Source: Lentinus brumalis
Lineage: Eukaryota > Basidiomycota > Agaricomycetes > Polyporales > Polyporaceae
Assembly (NCBI GenBank): GCA_001792895.1
Contig: MARA01000043.1
Location: 124,001 to 188,000 of the forward strand
Length of the DNA stretch: 64,000 nucleotides
Direction of reading: 5' to 3'
Shown here: positions 20,391 to 54,801 of the stretch, in pieces
Layout: each line of letters begins with the position of its first letter
Numbering within the stretch: the stretch's first letter is position 1
Made by a program: the position numbers and the translations under genes
Notes under the pieces: generated by a model
The model's database searches: none
What the model saw: only the letters and a program-made list of their open reading frames with translations
What the model was told of the DNA's origin: nothing

Positions 20391-21237
20391 TTCGCGTACC
20401 CTGGTACGCTTTGCTTACAATCGAACGCAACACGATATATTCCTCCTTATCCCCAGTTCGATCATCGATGCATGTCAGGATGATGCGCGCAGCCTGAGTA
20501 CGGAGCAAGTTGGATAGATTTCCTCTCGCTTCCCCAATACTCTCATCCTGGTCACGCTCAATGTTAGGAATAGAGTCCTCGTCCTGTCACACAGACACGT
20601 ACGTACCTCCGAGTCCTGTATCCCATCACCAATGCCCCAGCTCGAGCTCCACTCTCGACCTTGACCTCCTTCTCTCCAAGTCGACCCCGGTTTTATTCGT
20701 CAGGTTCATCCCTCCTTCGACTGGGCGGAGAGCGCGTGTTGGGATGGGGCACCCGGTCTGCCATGTTCGCTATATCACTTGTACTGCCTGCACCTGTTCG
20801 GGCTTGCTTCGGACAGCTGCAGGTCAAAAGGGCAGTCACGTCACGGCTCACGGCACCTCCCGAAGAGCTCTTACCCTCCGACCACATCTCCGCATCTGCG
20901 CGACGTCCTGCTCTTGCGACGAGTAGCCCGGCTAATAGACCCTGGTATGCATGCTGTCGATCAAGCATTGGTGCGATCGGTATGCTCATCTCGAATATCC
21001 TCGTTGAAGAGAAAAGGCAGACATCACGGTAGGATCGTACGCATACACCCTGCAAATGACTGCCACTGACAGCTTGACTGTACTTAGGTTTCGGATTTGC
21101 CCAAGTGGGGGATCTTGGTCACCGACGACAGCAACTACGTCCCGCTGAAGGCGAGTCGGGCTTTGCATACTATGCGCGCTTCTGCTGAGCAGTGAGGCGT
21201 TTGGGTGGCTCTCCACAGACCTCCTGAGTCCTCGACG
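20391..21237. other. Intergenic with a faint DUF6533-like trace
   Basis: Around 20,585-20,780 (+) the sequence resembles the minus strand of the 6.8-6.95 kb relic (ACGTACGT...CTC, then TCGACCCCGGTTTTATTCGT against TTGACCCCCATCCTGATTCC). It would encode TPVLFVRFIPP in place of TPILIPRFILD. This is weak. The rest is the promoter side of the gene at 21238. Confidence 0.35.
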
Positions 21238-22860
21238 ATGTCGGCCACATATCCAACGCCGCGTCTTAATTGGGACGCGCTGCGTGAAGTCGCCTTTTGC
21301 GCAGATCGCTCTACATGCGCGACGCTGATGCTGGCTTGTCGATTCTTCTACCACGAAGCCGCAAAATCGATATTGTCCAATAACATACGACTGTTGGGCG
21401 AGAAGGACATCCTCGGGTTTCTCCAATTCCTTCAGGCCGACAACGGCTCACGCTTCCAATACGCGCGGCACCTCACCCTATGTTATTTGTACAGGCTCAA
21501 GGTGCACGTTGTGGCTTCGCTGATCCGCAGCATGGACCGCATGCCTCAGCTGGAGCGCCTGAGCATCATATGCAGGGACTCTAACCTCAAGGGGTACCCC
21601 GCGGTGACGAACGCCATTGCGAAACTCACTCATCTTCGCCACCTCGAGATCACGTTCGCTGGTCAGGTCACCTGCGAGCTCCTCAAGTCTATGCAATCGA
21701 CCCTCATCTCTATAAGCCTCGATTGGTGCGATTACAGTGACTCTCACAGCTTTTTCGAGGCTACGGTCGACCGCGACCTCCTAGCCAACTACCACCCCGT
21801 GCTCCTCCTAGCCCGATGGGCACCGACTCTCGAAGAGCTCTTCTGCCACTCATGGTGCACGGGCTTGAAGGTGCCCATATTTCCGCACGTTTATCCCAGG
21901 CTCCGCGTCCTGCAGATAGAAGAAGACGACTTCCCGCTCATAGCTCCATTCATCCGGGCATTCCCGAACCTCAGACAGCTCGACTTTAGGACGGATCGGC
22001 AACACGCAGACGATTACGACGACTGCGAAGAGCACGCCCTGCCGGCGGAGATCCGCCAACACCGCGAGCGGAACATCGCATCCCAGCTTGCTCCCAACGG
22101 GCCGGGAACATGGCAACATCTCGAGAAGCTCGTTGGAGGTGTGGCCGATCTGTACCTGCTCGGACTCACGAGCCAAGTGTCGGCCGTCAGACTCTACACT
22201 GAGCTCAACGCTGCGAAACTCGGCCTCTTGTCCGTTGTCCTCTCTTACGCACGGCCGCTCCATCTGATGATCGAGGGCGATGGCGCGCTTTTAACCCACC
22301 CTCTACGCAGCCTCGCCAAGATCCTCCACGAGCCGTGGGCAGCCCGTCTGGAGAGCCTCAGCGTGGAGCTGCATCTCGGGGAGCAAGATGGCGACATCGA
22401 CATCCCATCCCTCCTAGTGCGTGTCCAGCTTCCTTACCGACGCGATACATGCGATCTCCGCTGACCGTTGCTCCCTTCACAGCACGCGCTCGCTTTCACT
22501 CTGTCCCAGCTTCCTATGCGGAGACTGCGCCTCAATCTAATCACGACCTGGCTGGACCCGACGCCCGATCCGCCAGAAGACTTCGAAACGTGGATGGCGA
22601 CAGAGACTCACGGCTTGCCCGAGCCCCGTCCCCCGTCCCCCGCACCTCTCACTCCGGCTGAAGTGATGCTGCAGTCGTTCGACGTGGACGCGTTCGTGCG
22701 CACCCTGGGAGACGCCACGCCGTCCCTCCAGGACGCCGTCGTTCAGGTCGTCGGGCCGCGAAGCAGCGGCCGCCGGGTGGCGGTCATCACCAAGTCCAAG
22801 ATTTACGTCGACCCGGACATAGACGCGGACATGAGCGAGGATCCGTTGAGTTATGACTGA
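21238..22860 (+). CDS. F-box-like/LRR protein
   Basis: Exons 21238-22416 and 22483-22860 (66-bp intron) give 518 residues. Start LNWDALREVAFCADRSTCA with MLACRFFYHEAAK; LRR landmarks NYHPVLLLARWAPTLEEL, YPRLRVLQIEEDDFPLIAP, DLYLLGLTS; last exon with PEPRPPSPAPLTPAE and DVDAFVRTLGDATPSLQDA. This is the closest intact relative of both the N-terminal relic at 690-845 and the orphan 3' exon at 7150-7512, so those fragments likely derive from this branch. The start aligns with the family after MSATYPTP. Probable SCF substrate receptor by family. Confidence 0.88.
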
Positions 22861-36836: not shown

Positions 36837-39800
36837 TCAAGAGCCGTACCATAGAGCGTGTAGGGCCCGTTCGTCGCCCCAGTATATAGAGACGTAGTGG
36901 CCCGGACGTGGAGATATGAAAGAACGTCCGAAGAGCACATCCCTCGTCAACCATTGCATCCAGCTTTCGTCTGCCGGTCCCTGCTCTGGGTCATCGTGTC
37001 CCAGTGGTCCGCATGGGTGACAAGGGTGCGAAATCCTCCCCGCTGTGCGGCCTTCCCCCGAGACCGAGCCTTCGACGTCCTCGGAGTGGTGCGCGGCATT
37101 CGCGTCCTCGATCGCGCCCCATTCCACTGCTGCTGCTCCCAGGCCGGGTTCCGCCTTCGGTCGCTTCGCCGGTCGAGTGTCCTCTGACTCACTTGGCCGC
37201 TTTGCCCGTGTGTGCTCTTCCTGCGATGGGAGGAAGGAGTCTGTACCCCCTGACTCGTCGCCAGCATCGATATCGTCGTGCTCCACGTCGGCCATCGAAG
37301 CGTCTTCGCCGTCCGAGGCGTCTCCGTCGTCTGAAGCGTCTCCGTCATCGGAATCGTCCTCGGACTCTTCGTCCATGTCCATGTCCACGTCTGAGTCCGT
37401 GTCCGTGTCCGTGTCCGAAAGCTCCTGTATCCGACCCTCCGCACCAGCAAGTTCATGCATTTCCCGCAAGACGAGACATTCATCCTTCGTGAGCGAGTAG
37501 TAATTGACTTCCACCCTGATGCAGGCATGTAGTCAGCGACGTCACTTTACTGGAGTACTCGGATGAGACACATACATGACTTCGATCTTGAACGTCCAGG
37601 GACCAAGCAGCTGAACCCACGTATACGTGCAGTCCTCTTGAGAGATCCCGGTGAAGGCGATGCAATGTTTTGAAGGATTGCCAGCACCTCGGTGTGCTTC
37701 GGAGGAGTCACGCATGTTGCATTGGTCATCCGAATCAGTTGACCAGAAACCCCAAGGCCAGTCTAGAGTCGGATCGAGGCTGCCGTTAGCGTACTCATGG
37801 ACCCGTTCGTAGAAATACAGCTGTGAAGGGAGCTGTCGCCCTGCACTGTTCCCCGACATATTGACGAGCGAAGTACGAGTGTAGAAGGTGAGGTCACTCG
37901 CTGCGGGTGCGGGATGCCCTCATCTTAGCGAGGCTGGCTGCATACGACGATGTAATGACTCACAGACAGCCAGATCTTCGAGAATGTTGGACCAGTCACG
38001 GCGTCGACGGGCCTCGTCTATCAACCAGAATTGATAGTTGCTGGGAGTCTCCACGTAGGTCCGCGTACAGAGGGTCAAGCCATAGGCCAGATCGGTTACT
38101 GTGTATCTAGAGATGAACATCGCAAGACTATGAGCATCCGTCACTGCACAGGCAGGGGCACGATACGGATAGCCGGCTTACCTCCTCCATGGTTGTTCTT
38201 TAGTAGAACCTCCCGTCACAAACTCACTTTTATTGACGACTGAGTGTACGACGGTGGCTGACAACGAGGTCTCGTCCTCACTGTCGACGACGTTCGGTGG
38301 CAGGTATCTGACACGTAGCCCGAACAGAAAACCGTTCAGGTCCGGTAGTACCTCCTTTCTTGAAAGCGAGAATACTTCCCCTGGCGCCGGTATACGAAGA
38401 GAGGACCAGAACACGCCGTCGACGGTCGGCATGAACCCGCTGGCTGCTATGACATTGAAGTCGTGCCATAGTCTCTGCAGGTAGTCGTAGCGATCCATCG
38501 GCACATTGGACTCGAAGTCGAATGCTGATATAGGTGTGCGAGACTTAGCAGACAGTATAGCGTCGTGAGAGGGTCCTCACATTTCACAAGGTCGCGCGTA
38601 CTCGTCGAAAGCTCGAAAAGCAGCGTCTGTCAAGACCTTTGTCAGCACTGCAATTTTGGGCCGTCATGGAAAAGTAGTACTTCTCCGCTGAAGATGCAAG
38701 TGGGCAGTTTGTTATTTTGAATGCATGAAGGGTCAAGGAGGATCCGCCCATCTTCGCTCACGACAAGTCCTTCTTTGGACAGCAGGGACTCCATCTGCAG
38801 ATGTAATCAGCGGACTGGGGCCCGGATGTGTCCCGGGTCCCTTACCCTATCATCAAGGGGCCAACAGAAGTTATCGCGCTGGGTCGCCAGATATGCGAGT
38901 CCCGCCTATAGCAGTTGGTAAGCAGCGGTACGCACCGACGCTGTCACGTAGCTCACATGTGTTTCTTTTGCCTACCTTCGAGCATGAGTTGGGGTTCAAG
39001 GGACTAATCACGATGAAATACGCACAACTTTCAGTATCCATTGCAGTTTGTCAGGACCATGTACCGTGTTGATCACCGCGTTGAACGACCGGGTATCTGG
39101 TCGAAGCACATCAGTGCGAGATGACATATGATATTCGAGGCAACATACAGAACCCATCGACGATGAATGCGGTGCCTGCGTCAGGCTTGGAATATCCGAT
39201 AACCTGCACGACGTTGGGATGCCTGTTCAAATGCGTCCTTTCAGGCCGCTCCTCTGAGAGGTAAACCGCACGTACCAGATCGACTTCGCAGCCTCTACCG
39301 CCTCGCGGAATTTGTCGTCCGGACGCGAGTAATTGCGCAGGACTACGAGTCTTCCGGTGTCACAGAGCCTTGCCTTGTAGCGCGGTTCGGAAGGATACAG
39401 GGCATCCTCAGGATCGATGACCCCCAGCAAGTCTATGTCCGCCTTGCTGAACAGTCGCAACTGCAGATGGGTAAGTCAGTAAGTCAGCTAGATCACGCAG
39501 AAGCACACAGAAATCATGCGCACCGCGCCGTCATACGGACTGCTGATTGTAACCTGTTGGAGAAGTGTGACGAGACGTGCATCGGTCTCGCGCGCGTAGC
39601 GAAGCAGGTCCGAGTCGACGCGCGCTGTATCGTCGAAGCGTTGTACCAGAGCTGTCTGGGTACGTCTGACGCTGCCTAGTTGGTACTCGGTACGTATAGA
39701 GCCCAGAAGCTGATGAGCAAGGATAAATAATCACTGCCGGAGACCGTCAATAAGTGAGCGAACTCGCATGAAAGGTTTCGACGGCTCGATCGAACTCCCT

Positions 39801-48230: not shown

Positions 48231-49474
48231 ATGACCAGACTTGTGGCTATTTGCGGTGCGACAGGGAACCAAGGTATGTCTTCGCCGCAGTCTTCGTTTC
48301 CGCAACGGTGATACTTAGCTGAAGGCTATAACTGGGACGTACATACTAGGTGGCTCCGTCGCGAAGCTACTACTTCAGTACCCGGATCTGTACCGGGTCC
48401 GTGCTCTGACGCGTGATCCTCAGTCCGCCGCCGCTCAAAAACTCGCCAATCTTGGTGCGGAAGTAGTGAAGGCAGATCTCACTGTGCCCACAGACGTGAA
48501 GGCGGCACTACGCGGTTGCTGGGGCGTCTTCGGCGTCACTAACTTCTACGATCCGGTACGTGCATCCTGCTCTCTTCACTGCTGGTCTCAGCAGCATGCT
48601 GATATGGTCCGCAGAAAATCAAGGACGATCCGGGTAGCGAGGAACAACAGGGCAAAAACCTCGTCGATGCCGCGCTGGAGAATGCCATCGAGTGCTTCGT
48701 ATGGAGCACCCTCCCTAGCTCGGAGAAGATTTCTGGCGGACGCTTGATCTCTCGAGTGTACGAGGGTCTGTGGGGTTCATGCATTGAGTCATTGTATCAA
48801 TCATCTGACATGCTCGCAGGGAAGCATCATGTCGACGGCTACATCCTCGAGAAGGGTCTCCCGGCCACCTTCCTCTTCACGGGTAACTTCTACGAGAACT
48901 TGGTCTATAGATCTCACATGACGTACGACCGCGAGCGCGACATCGTGGAATTCCACCAGCCCATCATCAAGGAGACTACGCCGCGTAAGCCCCCTGCCCC
49001 GACCAGATGCGTCGCTCGCTTGATTACATCACTGAGCACAGTCACTCGCAGTTGCGATGCTCTATGTTCAGAAGGACCTATCCGCAGTCACGAAAGCCGT
49101 CTTCGACAACTGGGATGCTCGCAAGGACGAGCTGAACCACCAGTACCTCTACGTCGCGAACGCCCGAGTGACCCCGCGCGATATCCTCGCTAGCGTCAAG
49201 AAACGTACGCCCCTTTCAATATTCACTACTCCGCAACGAAGGCTTACGAACCCCCGTATGTGCAGTAACCGGGAAAGACGGAACGTACCACGTCCTTCCG
49301 ACCACAGGCGTGCCAGACCGCGACGTCATGTTCCAGATCTACAACGACACGGGGATGTATGGAAGCAAGGAGCTCCCTGACGAGAATATTGCCAAGCTCG
49401 GCGTGGAGATGCACGGAATCGACGACTTCGTGAGGGACATGCTGGCTCCTCATCTTGGTCTGCCGTTGTTGTAG
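48231..49474 (+). CDS. NmrA-like NAD(P)-binding protein
   Basis: Six exons (48231-48273, 48350-48555, 48615-48765, 48820-48984, 49052-49204, 49266-49474) encode 308 residues, the normal length. The N-terminal beta-strand and glycine motif LVAICGATGNQGGSVAKLLL binds NAD(P) in this atypical short-chain dehydrogenase family. Further family features are VRALTRDP after beta-2, AEVVKADLTVP, GVFGVTNFYD and FVWSTLPSSE; FLFTGNFYENL follows. The usual catalytic Tyr-x-x-x-Lys is not evident, consistent with NmrA-type redox-sensing or regulatory proteins rather than active dehydrogenases. NmrA itself binds a GATA factor in nitrogen control; whether this protein does is not known. Splice phases all agree. 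Confidence 0.9.
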
Positions 49475-51738: not shown

Positions 51739-54700
51739 ATGGACACACTAATCGATGCCCTCAAGCTTGCGGAAGCGGCGACCGAGGCGCTCCCGGTACC
51801 TGGCCTTACCAATGCAGTCAAGGTATCCCTCAGATTGGCTGAGATGGCTAAGGTACGGGTTTCTCCGAGCTTATCCAACTCACACCAGCTAATGTTTTCA
51901 CTCTGTCGCATGCAGAAGATCAAGGATACAACGGACGGTATGCGGGCGCTTGCTGAGCACGCTGCTGCGACCACGAAGGCAATATACGAGGCCTTAGGCT
52001 CCGTGGAGGGTACAAGAGACCTTTCGCAGACCGAAAGACTTGTCGAAGATCTTCTTAGGTGAGTGTACCAACCGGTCCCCTACATGTCATGCTTCCTCCG
52101 CAATTTTGACATGTCCCAGTACGCTCCGCGAAATCGAAGCTCTCATGTTGCGGCCGAAGAAGAAGAAGAAGTTATTCCTTCACCGCCACAAATACGAAGC
52201 CGAGCTTGCTGGGCTTACGAAGAAGCTTGAGGGTTCTCGCGCATCATTCTACGTGAGCTATTGCATTTGAGGGCAGCGCGCGTCGGGATGTCAATGATTC
52301 TTTGTCAGGTCCAAAGCGCGGTTACCACAGATCTGCAGCTGCGCGATATACGACTCACTCACGGTGCTCTCATGCAAGGCGTCGACGATGTCCATCGTGT
52401 CAATGCGCAACTCCTTCCCCTCACTCGCGACACTAAAGCAGACGTCGCCAAGATCATGGGCAGCATCTCGGTCATTACTGGATATGACGGTGCGGTACGT
52501 CCGACATGCTTTCACCTTTGCGATTACCTGACTCTCGCCATCTTCTGCAGAGCAAACTGTTCGGCCTAGACGAGATAGATTTCGATGAACCCATATCCGC
52601 GGGCTCTGTATCCCGGGTCAAGGCAAGAATATGTAGCAGCAACAGAGTTGTGGTGGCCCGAGTGTTCTCGTCTCCAGATGATGGCAGCTTCCGTGAGGAA
52701 CTCAAGGTTGCAAAGTTGGTCTGGTAAGCGGAACCTACTTGAGCTGAGCACCGTGCATGGTGACAGTACTCACTGTGTCAATAGGCACCGCAACGTAATA
52801 CCAGCTATCGGGTACTCCCGGCCGGACCCACGTGTCGCGTTCATTGTTTATGACAGGCCCAGAAGTTTGCCGTTCCCCCGAGTCGGTGCCCTTGGCCTCG
52901 CTGACATTCATCGTCAAGATGTCCGCTCATTCGAAGAAGTGTTTGACACGATCGCCCGTGGCCCCGAAAGGATAGAATGGCTCAAGAAAACTGTGCGTGC
53001 TAGGATGCTTACATTTTGACCTCACTAATCGCTATGCGGCAGGCGAAGGAAGTAGAGGTAAGCCATGAGGTACTCAGTAGTGTACATCTGTTTACTATCT
53101 CCTTCAGGTGGGACTCGCACATCTCGCAAACCTACTGGGCTCTCTTGATTTCCATTCCCACCGGAAAAGTATCGAACCTAAAGATGTGAGCGACGTCCTG
53201 AATTGCACACTCAACATGCTGATCGTCAGCAGGAATACTACGCATGGGCTGATGCACTGGTCATAAGCGAGTCTGATGGGAAGGTCCTCCTAGACCCGTC
53301 ACAATTCCAGCTCGCGGGCGTGTTGCCTCTTGAGATCGAGTATTCAGGATACGAACACCACTCCGTACGGCTGCTTCTTTATTTCAGAGTATGACGATGC
53401 TCACTGGCACGGACATGAACTCATCTCCTAGCGCTTGCCGACGAGTGAGTCAAATCATCTTTCGACTTGTAGAACTGAATTGTTGACGTCTAGCGGGGGC
53501 ATAGCTGTGACGCACGACTCCACAGTGCCACCATCGGAACGCTATGATTATTTGCTCACGCTCTGGCGTGACCTCAGTGATATTGTGATCTCCGGTGTTA
53601 TTCGAGGGTTCAGTTATCCCTGGTTGAGGGGCTTTCATACATGGCCGGTTCTTGGGCAAGCGGTGTTGTGGAGGAAACGAACGTCCGTGCCCGACATAGC
53701 ACATGAAGACCTCATTGCCACATTGGAGGAGAATAAGTCGTTTCTGAGCCACGGCAAACCGTGGTGGTCCTCCAAAGAAGGAGGTTTCAGTGGTGCTGCC
53801 CTTGTGGAGCGAGGCACCGCGGTCAAGCAGCGGTGGTGGAGGTACGTCACTTCTCAGTACGGGGACAAGGTCTACGGTCCAACAGGCCCGAGAGCAACCT
53901 GACGGCTTTTACGCTCAGGTACACGGCACGTAAGGACTTCGTTGAGGATAAGGTGTTCAGTGAAGTACATGTCGATACTCGCTTCACCCAGAAGTCCAGC
54001 TGGTTCCGAGACCAATGCCTTCGATATCTCAATTTTGGCTATGACCTCGATGAACTGGCTATCAGTAGGTCTTTGCATCCTCTCATGCGGTCCGGATCGC
54101 TCACGAGAGGATTATCTGCAGCGACGGGTGTGTGCTACCTCACGAACATATCGCGCAAAGTTGATGTCTCCGAGGACGCAAGCGATGAAGGACTTCTCTC
54201 AGAACTCTACTACTTCCAGCGCGTTGCTTATTACCCAGACGCGACCGTCATTCCCAATCTTTCCCAGCCATGGGGCTTCTGGTCGTGTAATCCGGACGAC
54301 CCATGCGATGTCCCCGATTTTCAAGATGCATCCCAGAGCGGGCCTTCAACTTGCTACGACATCACGCTTCTCCGGACAGATGACCAGAACGACGACAAAG
54401 ATTCGGGCGACGAAGACGTCCGCGTTACGTGGATCCAGCGAATTGGTTCTTACACGTTCACCATGATTCTTCAGTATGCATCGCAAATTCCTTGTCTTAC
54501 ACAATCAGCAGAATTTTGCTAACTCCATGATTGACTTAGTCCAGTGTGCTATGTTCAGCAACTCACTTCGGACGAGATTGTGCTGATCAGGGAGCTACAA
54601 GAACTCGAGCGTGTGCAGGGTCGATTCGAGGAGGTCGCGGACGTCTCCATCAGCCGCCTCGAGGACGCAGATTCATTCATCGACACTGCACCGTCTGAGG

Positions 54701-54801
54701 ACACGGATGCTTCCGATGTCCCCGAAGATATGGATGCGTCTAGCGAGTTGGGAGATGTCTGGTACGATGCGGAAGACGGCTCGGAGGAGGGATCAGAATA
54801 G
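51739..54801 (+). CDS. HeLo/MLKL-NTD-like pseudokinase protein B
   Basis: Fourteen exons give 768 residues with all phases matching: 51739-51852, 51916-52058, 52120-52252, 52309-52494, 52551-52723, 52785-52992, 53043-53057, 53108-53185, 53230-53364, 53432-53444, 53505-53841, 53919-54064, 54110-54473, 54540-54801. Residues 1-175 are the helical bundle (LAEAATEALPVPGLTNAV, MRALAEHAAATTKAIYEAL). Residues about 190-390 are kinase-like: VVVARVFSSPDD (beta-3 Lys is Arg), HRNVIPAIGYSRPDP, VGLAHLANLLGS, GKVLLDPS (DFG is DPS), no HRD. The private C-terminal domain has SQPWGFWSCNPDDPC and RVTWIQRIGSYTF, then LTSDEIVLIRELQELE and a short acidic tail. Exons 7 and 10 are only 15 and 13 nt. It faces F-box gene B tail to tail. 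Cytotoxic or signalling role is inferred from likeness to MLKL architecture. Confidence 0.8.

Follow-up and report, generated by a model that had tools for sequence, protein, structure and literature searches.

The 64,000-nucleotide stretch of the Lentinus brumalis genome analysed here (hereafter the window) carries three genes, A, B, and C, which together with a fourth gene, D, elsewhere in the same genome encode predicted proteins in which an MLKL_N-type domain that carries a leading helix is connected by a linker to a degenerate kinase region and then to a conserved C-terminal part. We consider it somewhat probable that A-D constitute an MLKL-like three-domain family, in which a helical bundle gated by a pseudokinase would permeabilise a membrane and lead to regulated cell death.

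Gene models were obtained by reading each stretch in three frames and joining the exons via splice signals and mutual homology. Gene A (14091-11000, minus strand) has 15 exons and encodes 738 amino acids, with 11 GT-AG and three GC-AG introns, while gene C (40289-36837, minus strand) has 15 exons encoding 882 amino acids, with 13 GT-AG introns and one GC-AG intron. Gene B (51739-54801, plus strand), whose model was built by hand, uses GT-AG at all 12 introns. Thus, 36 of the 40 introns of the three genes are GT-AG and four are GC-AG, and all three frames are intact. The initial annotation had placed B at these coordinates, which proved exact to the base; its count of 14 exons and 768 amino acids gave way to 13 exons and 792 amino acids in the rebuilt model. 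The weakest point of the models is the border between exons 9 and 10 of B, where a 43-nt intron has no homology backing.

The three genes are alike in their exon layout, N-terminal helical domain, kinase-like region, and C-terminal part; the three-gene family proposed earlier therefore holds, with intact members that share both exon layout and domain order. The alignment of the A-C proteins is strongest over the first 400 residues and then again in the C-terminal part. The first exon measures 114 nt in A, B, and C, as had been claimed, and 123 nt in D. All four genes contain a 15-nt phase-0 microexon at the same place, which in B is exon 7 (53043..53057, plus strand). The previously described PVPGL motif, LAERAA-like helix, and GFWS or GYWS followed by WVQ or WIQ were all found in the A-C proteins, where the common forms are PVPGL, LAE-AA, and G[FY]WS ... 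W[VI]Q; the corresponding motifs in D are PVPG, LAERAA, AYWS, and WTQ. The C-terminal tail of gene C (36837-37515, minus strand) is long and includes an acidic stretch; it is absent from A and D and partial in B.

In gene B, the N-terminal helical domain of the MLKL_N type is encoded by exons 1-3 (51739..52252, plus strand), with a leading helix before PVPGL and homology to A and D. The Pfam MLKL_N model (PF22215; curated cut-off 27 bits) scored above the cut-off in three of five sequences, namely, A (27.3 bits), D (33.0 bits), and a Cerioporus squamosus protein described below (35.3 bits). B and C gave no match to PF22215 at E <= 10, and we count them as MLKL_N type because they are homologous to the other three. 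The PF22215 match begins at residue 24-27; in the segment before it, the model of the Cerioporus protein shows a helix at residues 3-20 (pLDDT 84-93). When the N-terminal profile of A-D was compared with the PDB, MLKL appeared in two of nine rows at E about 0.9. With the related N-terminal domain of gene E (see below) added to the profile, MLKL occupied five of 11 rows at E 0.14-0.29, all over the span 23-144, but a designed coiled coil led the list (E 0.027), and two unrelated chains also scored better than MLKL. We therefore regard the PDB matches of the N-terminal profiles as not significant by themselves, in contrast to the Pfam MLKL_N match, which is significant. PF22215 run directly on the L. 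brumalis genome gave a single match (E 0.57), a near-empty result that comes from the division of the domain among several exons. Exons 1-2 of B had no match among phage records, which is uninformative. The hydrophobic moment of the first bundle helix is 0.24 in A, 0.42 in B, 0.38 in C, and 0.23 in D, with net charges of 0, +3, 0, and +1, respectively. Exon 4 of B (52309..52494, plus strand) encodes a linker between the two domains, corresponding in position to the brace of MLKL, and this segment is helical in a low-confidence model of the Cerioporus protein.

The kinase-like region of B is encoded by exons 5-9 (52551..53388, plus strand) and carries VVAR for VAIK, PKD for HRD, and DPS for DFG. 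A profile of this region from five sequences matched the PDB with a best E of 3.8e-5, and the best 60 of its 261 matches at E <= 1 were all protein kinases. Similar results were obtained with four sequences (best E 1.2e-4; the best 60 of 253 matches at E <= 10 all protein kinases) and with three (best E 2.8e-4), and the kinases matched included Fes, TNNI3K, RAF, ABL, LIMK1, and BRI1. The reversed four-sequence control found no match in the PDB at E <= 10. Together, the MLKL_N scores above cut-off in A, D, and the Cerioporus protein, the kinase profile matches, and the empty reversed control bear out the architecture first suggested, a helical bundle joined to a kinase domain. None of the five sequences passed a Pfam kinase cut-off (PF07714 or PF00069): the kinase-like region of C reached 17.4 bits with PF07714 (E 0.0029; cut-off 23.1), A scored 13.6 bits, also below cut-off, and no kinase match was listed for full-length B, D, or the Cerioporus protein.

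We compared the residues at the canonical kinase positions. HMM alignments to LIMK1 and Fes placed Arg in the β3-Lys column of A-C, which backs the replacement reported for these three copies; in D and the Cerioporus protein, this column holds Val, followed by Arg. The DFG position reads DPS in B and C and DLN in A, just as initially noted, DMH in D, and DIQ in the Cerioporus protein, and its Asp is invariant in the family alignment of all five sequences. At the HRD position, we found QED (A), PKD (B), LDD (C), and QRD (D and the Cerioporus protein); HMM alignments to Fes and TNNI3K indicate that the Asp is apparently kept in all five, with variable loop spacing. Thus, the earlier statement that no HRD is found is correct for the motif but not for its Asp, which appears to be retained in the three copies concerned. 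The glycine loop (GxGxxG), the catalytic Asn, and the DFG Phe-Gly are absent from the family alignment, and only B has Glu at the αC-Glu position, where A and C have Ala and D and its Cerioporus relative have Asp. We conclude from these alignments that the region is a degenerate kinase, which has lost the β3-Lys, the glycine loop, the catalytic Asn, and the DFG Phe-Gly. The description of the domain as catalytically dead is likely to be right, given the loss of these residues, yet it is unproven because the HRD and DFG Asp both appear to be kept. In the profile matches, kinase similarity fades soon after DFG, and thus, a complete C-lobe is not demonstrated.

The remaining kinase C-lobe would lie in the weakly conserved middle segment, encoded in B by exons 10-11 (53432..54064, plus strand), where the identity between copies is 14-25%. 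It is followed by the third domain (GFWS ... WIQ) and an acidic tail, encoded by exons 12-13 (54122..54801, plus strand). The third domain, roughly 140 residues long, is marked by conserved P-x-[GA]-[FY]-W-S, D-D, W-[VIT]-Q, G, F, and a final E...RE. The initial annotation had called it uncharacterised, in agreement with our searches: it is present in A-D and the Cerioporus protein (five of five), it had no match in Pfam, and the single rows returned from the PDB (E 1.4) and NCBIfam (E 0.09, far under cut-off) were taken as noise. Homology to the C-terminal part of E seemed plausible by eye and was rejected, as hhalign gave no support for a relation between the C-terminal parts of E and A-D (0.7%).

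Two AlphaFold2 models, of the third-domain exon alone and of the Cerioporus protein, had mean pLDDT values of 40 and 43, and no folded kinase region was predicted (block pLDDT 26-43 in the Cerioporus protein). The latter model showed helices in residues 1-100 at block pLDDT 52-93 and fell below 60 thereafter, and fold searches were uninformative. Because the predicted models are too low in confidence, the fold assignments given here rest on sequence profiles.

With residues 1-685 of C as the query, the L. brumalis genome (136 contigs, 53.4 Mb) yielded matches at the window genes and at a single further locus, C43:395262-395516. Around it lies a complete fourth gene, D, with 12 exons encoding 717 amino acids in an intact frame. 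As a protein query, D gave one match at E <= 0.01 among 7997 scored, a hypothetical protein of 714 amino acids from Cerioporus squamosus, a polypore (Polyporales). The two are 81% identical over their full length, and the Cerioporus protein is probably the ortholog of D; by region, the linker shows 74% identity, and each of the other four segments (N-terminal, kinase-like, middle, and C-terminal) 82-83%. The splice acceptor of D exon 8 and the length of 717 amino acids were adopted because the Cerioporus protein fixes that site. A 710-aa model of D with the other exon 8 acceptor was used in the four-sequence kinase profile, the reversed control, the full-length Pfam scan, and the dN/dS analysis; the stretch that differs lies in the kinase-like region, for which the five-sequence profile uses the 717-aa version. 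About 6 kb past D, at C43:403468-403548, we observed a 28-aa piece 81% identical to the C-terminal domain of D, perhaps from a second, partial D-like gene.

The family resemblance is beyond chance, as direct pairwise comparison with the Cerioporus protein gave E values of 7e-49 for A (residues 5-422), 8e-30 for B (1-412), and 7e-49 for C (1-689). When C was used as a query against the protein database (first 730 of 882 amino acids, region 1-720), no match at E <= 1e-3 was found among 7992 scored. This result carries little weight, since the same database includes the Cerioporus protein that C matches directly.

Nei-Gojobori estimates for the B-C pair put dN below dS in every region, with respective values of 0.42 and 1.78 in the N-terminal domain, 0.53 and 1.87 in the kinase-like region, 0.93 and 1.85 in the middle segment, and 0.64 and 1.78 in the C-terminal part. 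These dS values are close to saturation, and dS was not computable for nine of the 24 pair-regions. dN was lowest in the N-terminal domain and the kinase. Thus, the four intact frames and the excess of dS over dN between B and C point to function, with the tightest constraint in the first two domains.

The same genome contains another type of gene, E (L081; C101:130200-134300, minus strand), which encodes an MLKL_N-like domain, a kinase, and a C-terminal part of no recognised family. E and A-D have in common a related N-terminal domain, a kinase, and a further C-terminal part, whereas E alone keeps HGD, the catalytic Asn, and DFG; its kinase retains HGDLK, AAN, and DFG and matches PF07714 at E 9e-47. 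The N-terminal domain of E scored 22.8 bits with PF22215, under the MLKL_N cut-off, and is related to those of A-D (hhalign probability 88%, E 3e-6). For the kinase regions, the hhalign probability was only 41% (E 2.8e-4). A phase-0 intron in the catalytic loop of all four genes A-D lies within one or two codons of a phase-0 intron of E, and this shared position supports a common kinase ancestry. The C101 copy of E may be damaged: its first exon has an apparent frameshift relative to the sister copies, and the reading frame changes where the kinase begins, with no recognised splice site. D as a query also finds MLKL_N-like exons at C101, C4, and several places on C121. Further E-type N-terminal exons are L057 (C4:25078), L058-L060 (C121:28553, 40718, and 12121), and L062 (C121:10-267). 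The C4 and C121 copies are 91-97% identical in DNA to the C101 copy, and their similarity to the C101 gene stops before the kinase, within the ~1 kb examined. The protein database contained 42 proteins matching the E-type N-terminal query at E <= 0.01, including several from named fungi.

Matches to NACHT genes numbered 12 in this genome, none of them on C75, the contig carrying the window. A scan of 20 neighbouring long frames at E <= 0.01 detected LRR models on one and NmrA on another. The former (21196-22464, plus strand) matched two LRR models, both under cut-off, and the latter (48603-49193, plus strand) matched NmrA above cut-off (E 4.5e-9).

Animal MLKL (human, mouse) likewise has an N-terminal domain, whose relation to that of A-D shows at the Pfam MLKL_N level, followed by a linker and a degenerate kinase region. 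In comparison, the A-D family adds a leading helix before the bundle and a third, C-terminal domain; its kinase region appears far more divergent, with an unrecognisable C-lobe. Plant MLKL proteins also combine a helical bundle with a kinase-like region, a likeness to A-D drawn from published descriptions. MLKL is described as being kept off by its pseudokinase and killing once the bundle is freed (PMC12881547). A passage of the same source mentions fungal HELL-kinase/pseudokinase proteins in general terms, giving neither an example nor a phylum and no third domain. In fungal NLR proteins studied with AlphaFold2, those of basidiomycetes commonly have MLKL-type bundles, and the basidiomycete MLKL-like (BaMLKL) domains are reported to carry an additional N-terminal helix (PMC9815663), as does the MLKL-type bundle of A-D. 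As described there, however, BaMLKL forms the NLR N terminus before a nucleotide-binding domain, whereas in A-D the pseudokinase and third domain come next. A fungal "MLKL" has been named in Basidiobolus meristosporus (PMC11476962), and MLKL-family proteins with Sel1 repeats in Glomeromycotina (PMC8778642); these belong to other phyla, and their descriptions there do not include a domain resembling the third one. Our literature search, in which subscription journals were thinly covered, found no account of the A-D family or its third domain. Fungal MLKL-like proteins have already been mentioned in print, and the three-domain form appears to be new among them.

Could A-D instead be regulators, decoys, or adaptors, with no executioner role, which would use their MLKL_N domain to contact others of the MLKL_N type, for example E, and their third domain to sense something? 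We regard this as possible, if rather doubtful. It would fit the presence at C101 of an MLKL_N-like domain ahead of a kinase that keeps HGD, the catalytic Asn, and DFG, and the fact that no cationic, strongly amphipathic first helix is common to A-D; however, the first helix of B is cationic and moderately amphipathic, there is no sign of an interaction between A-D and E, and the damage suspected in the C101 copy weakens the proposed partnership. A bolder reading, which we consider improbable, is a polypore necroptosis-like pair, in which an E-type active kinase would activate the MLKL_N pseudokinases A-D and the third domain would be the recognition part, diversifying by local duplication.

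It is quite improbable that the kinase-like region belongs to an atypical kinase still active via its two retained Asp, with MLKL_N serving as a localisation domain. All five sequences apparently keep the Asp of both HRD and DFG, which would allow for this, but the glycine loop, β3-Lys, catalytic Asn, and DFG Phe-Gly are all missing, and the αC-Glu is retained only in B. We give even less credence to A-D being decaying duplicates without function: despite the clustering of three copies within 44 kb and the short D-like fragment past D, all four frames are intact across 12-15 exons, dN is below dS between B and C, and a full-length relative exists in another genus.

Given an MLKL layout with an added domain, the simplest reading of A-D is a signal-gated membrane effector acting in fungal non-self recognition or defence. 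The kinase-like region would act as a switch and not as an enzyme, as in MLKL, and would keep the N-terminal bundle inactive; a signal acting on the pseudokinase or on the C-terminal domain would release it. The freed bundle would then oligomerise and permeabilise the membrane, and the outcome would be regulated cell death; that A-D proteins kill cells is what we infer by analogy with MLKL. If this is true, a mushroom-forming fungus has full MLKL-type proteins with bundle, linker, and pseudokinase, beyond the bundle found on NLRs and on HET-S-like effectors. A shared origin of necroptosis-like death in animals, plants, and fungi would then become directly testable, and one would have to ask what it is that the additional domain detects.
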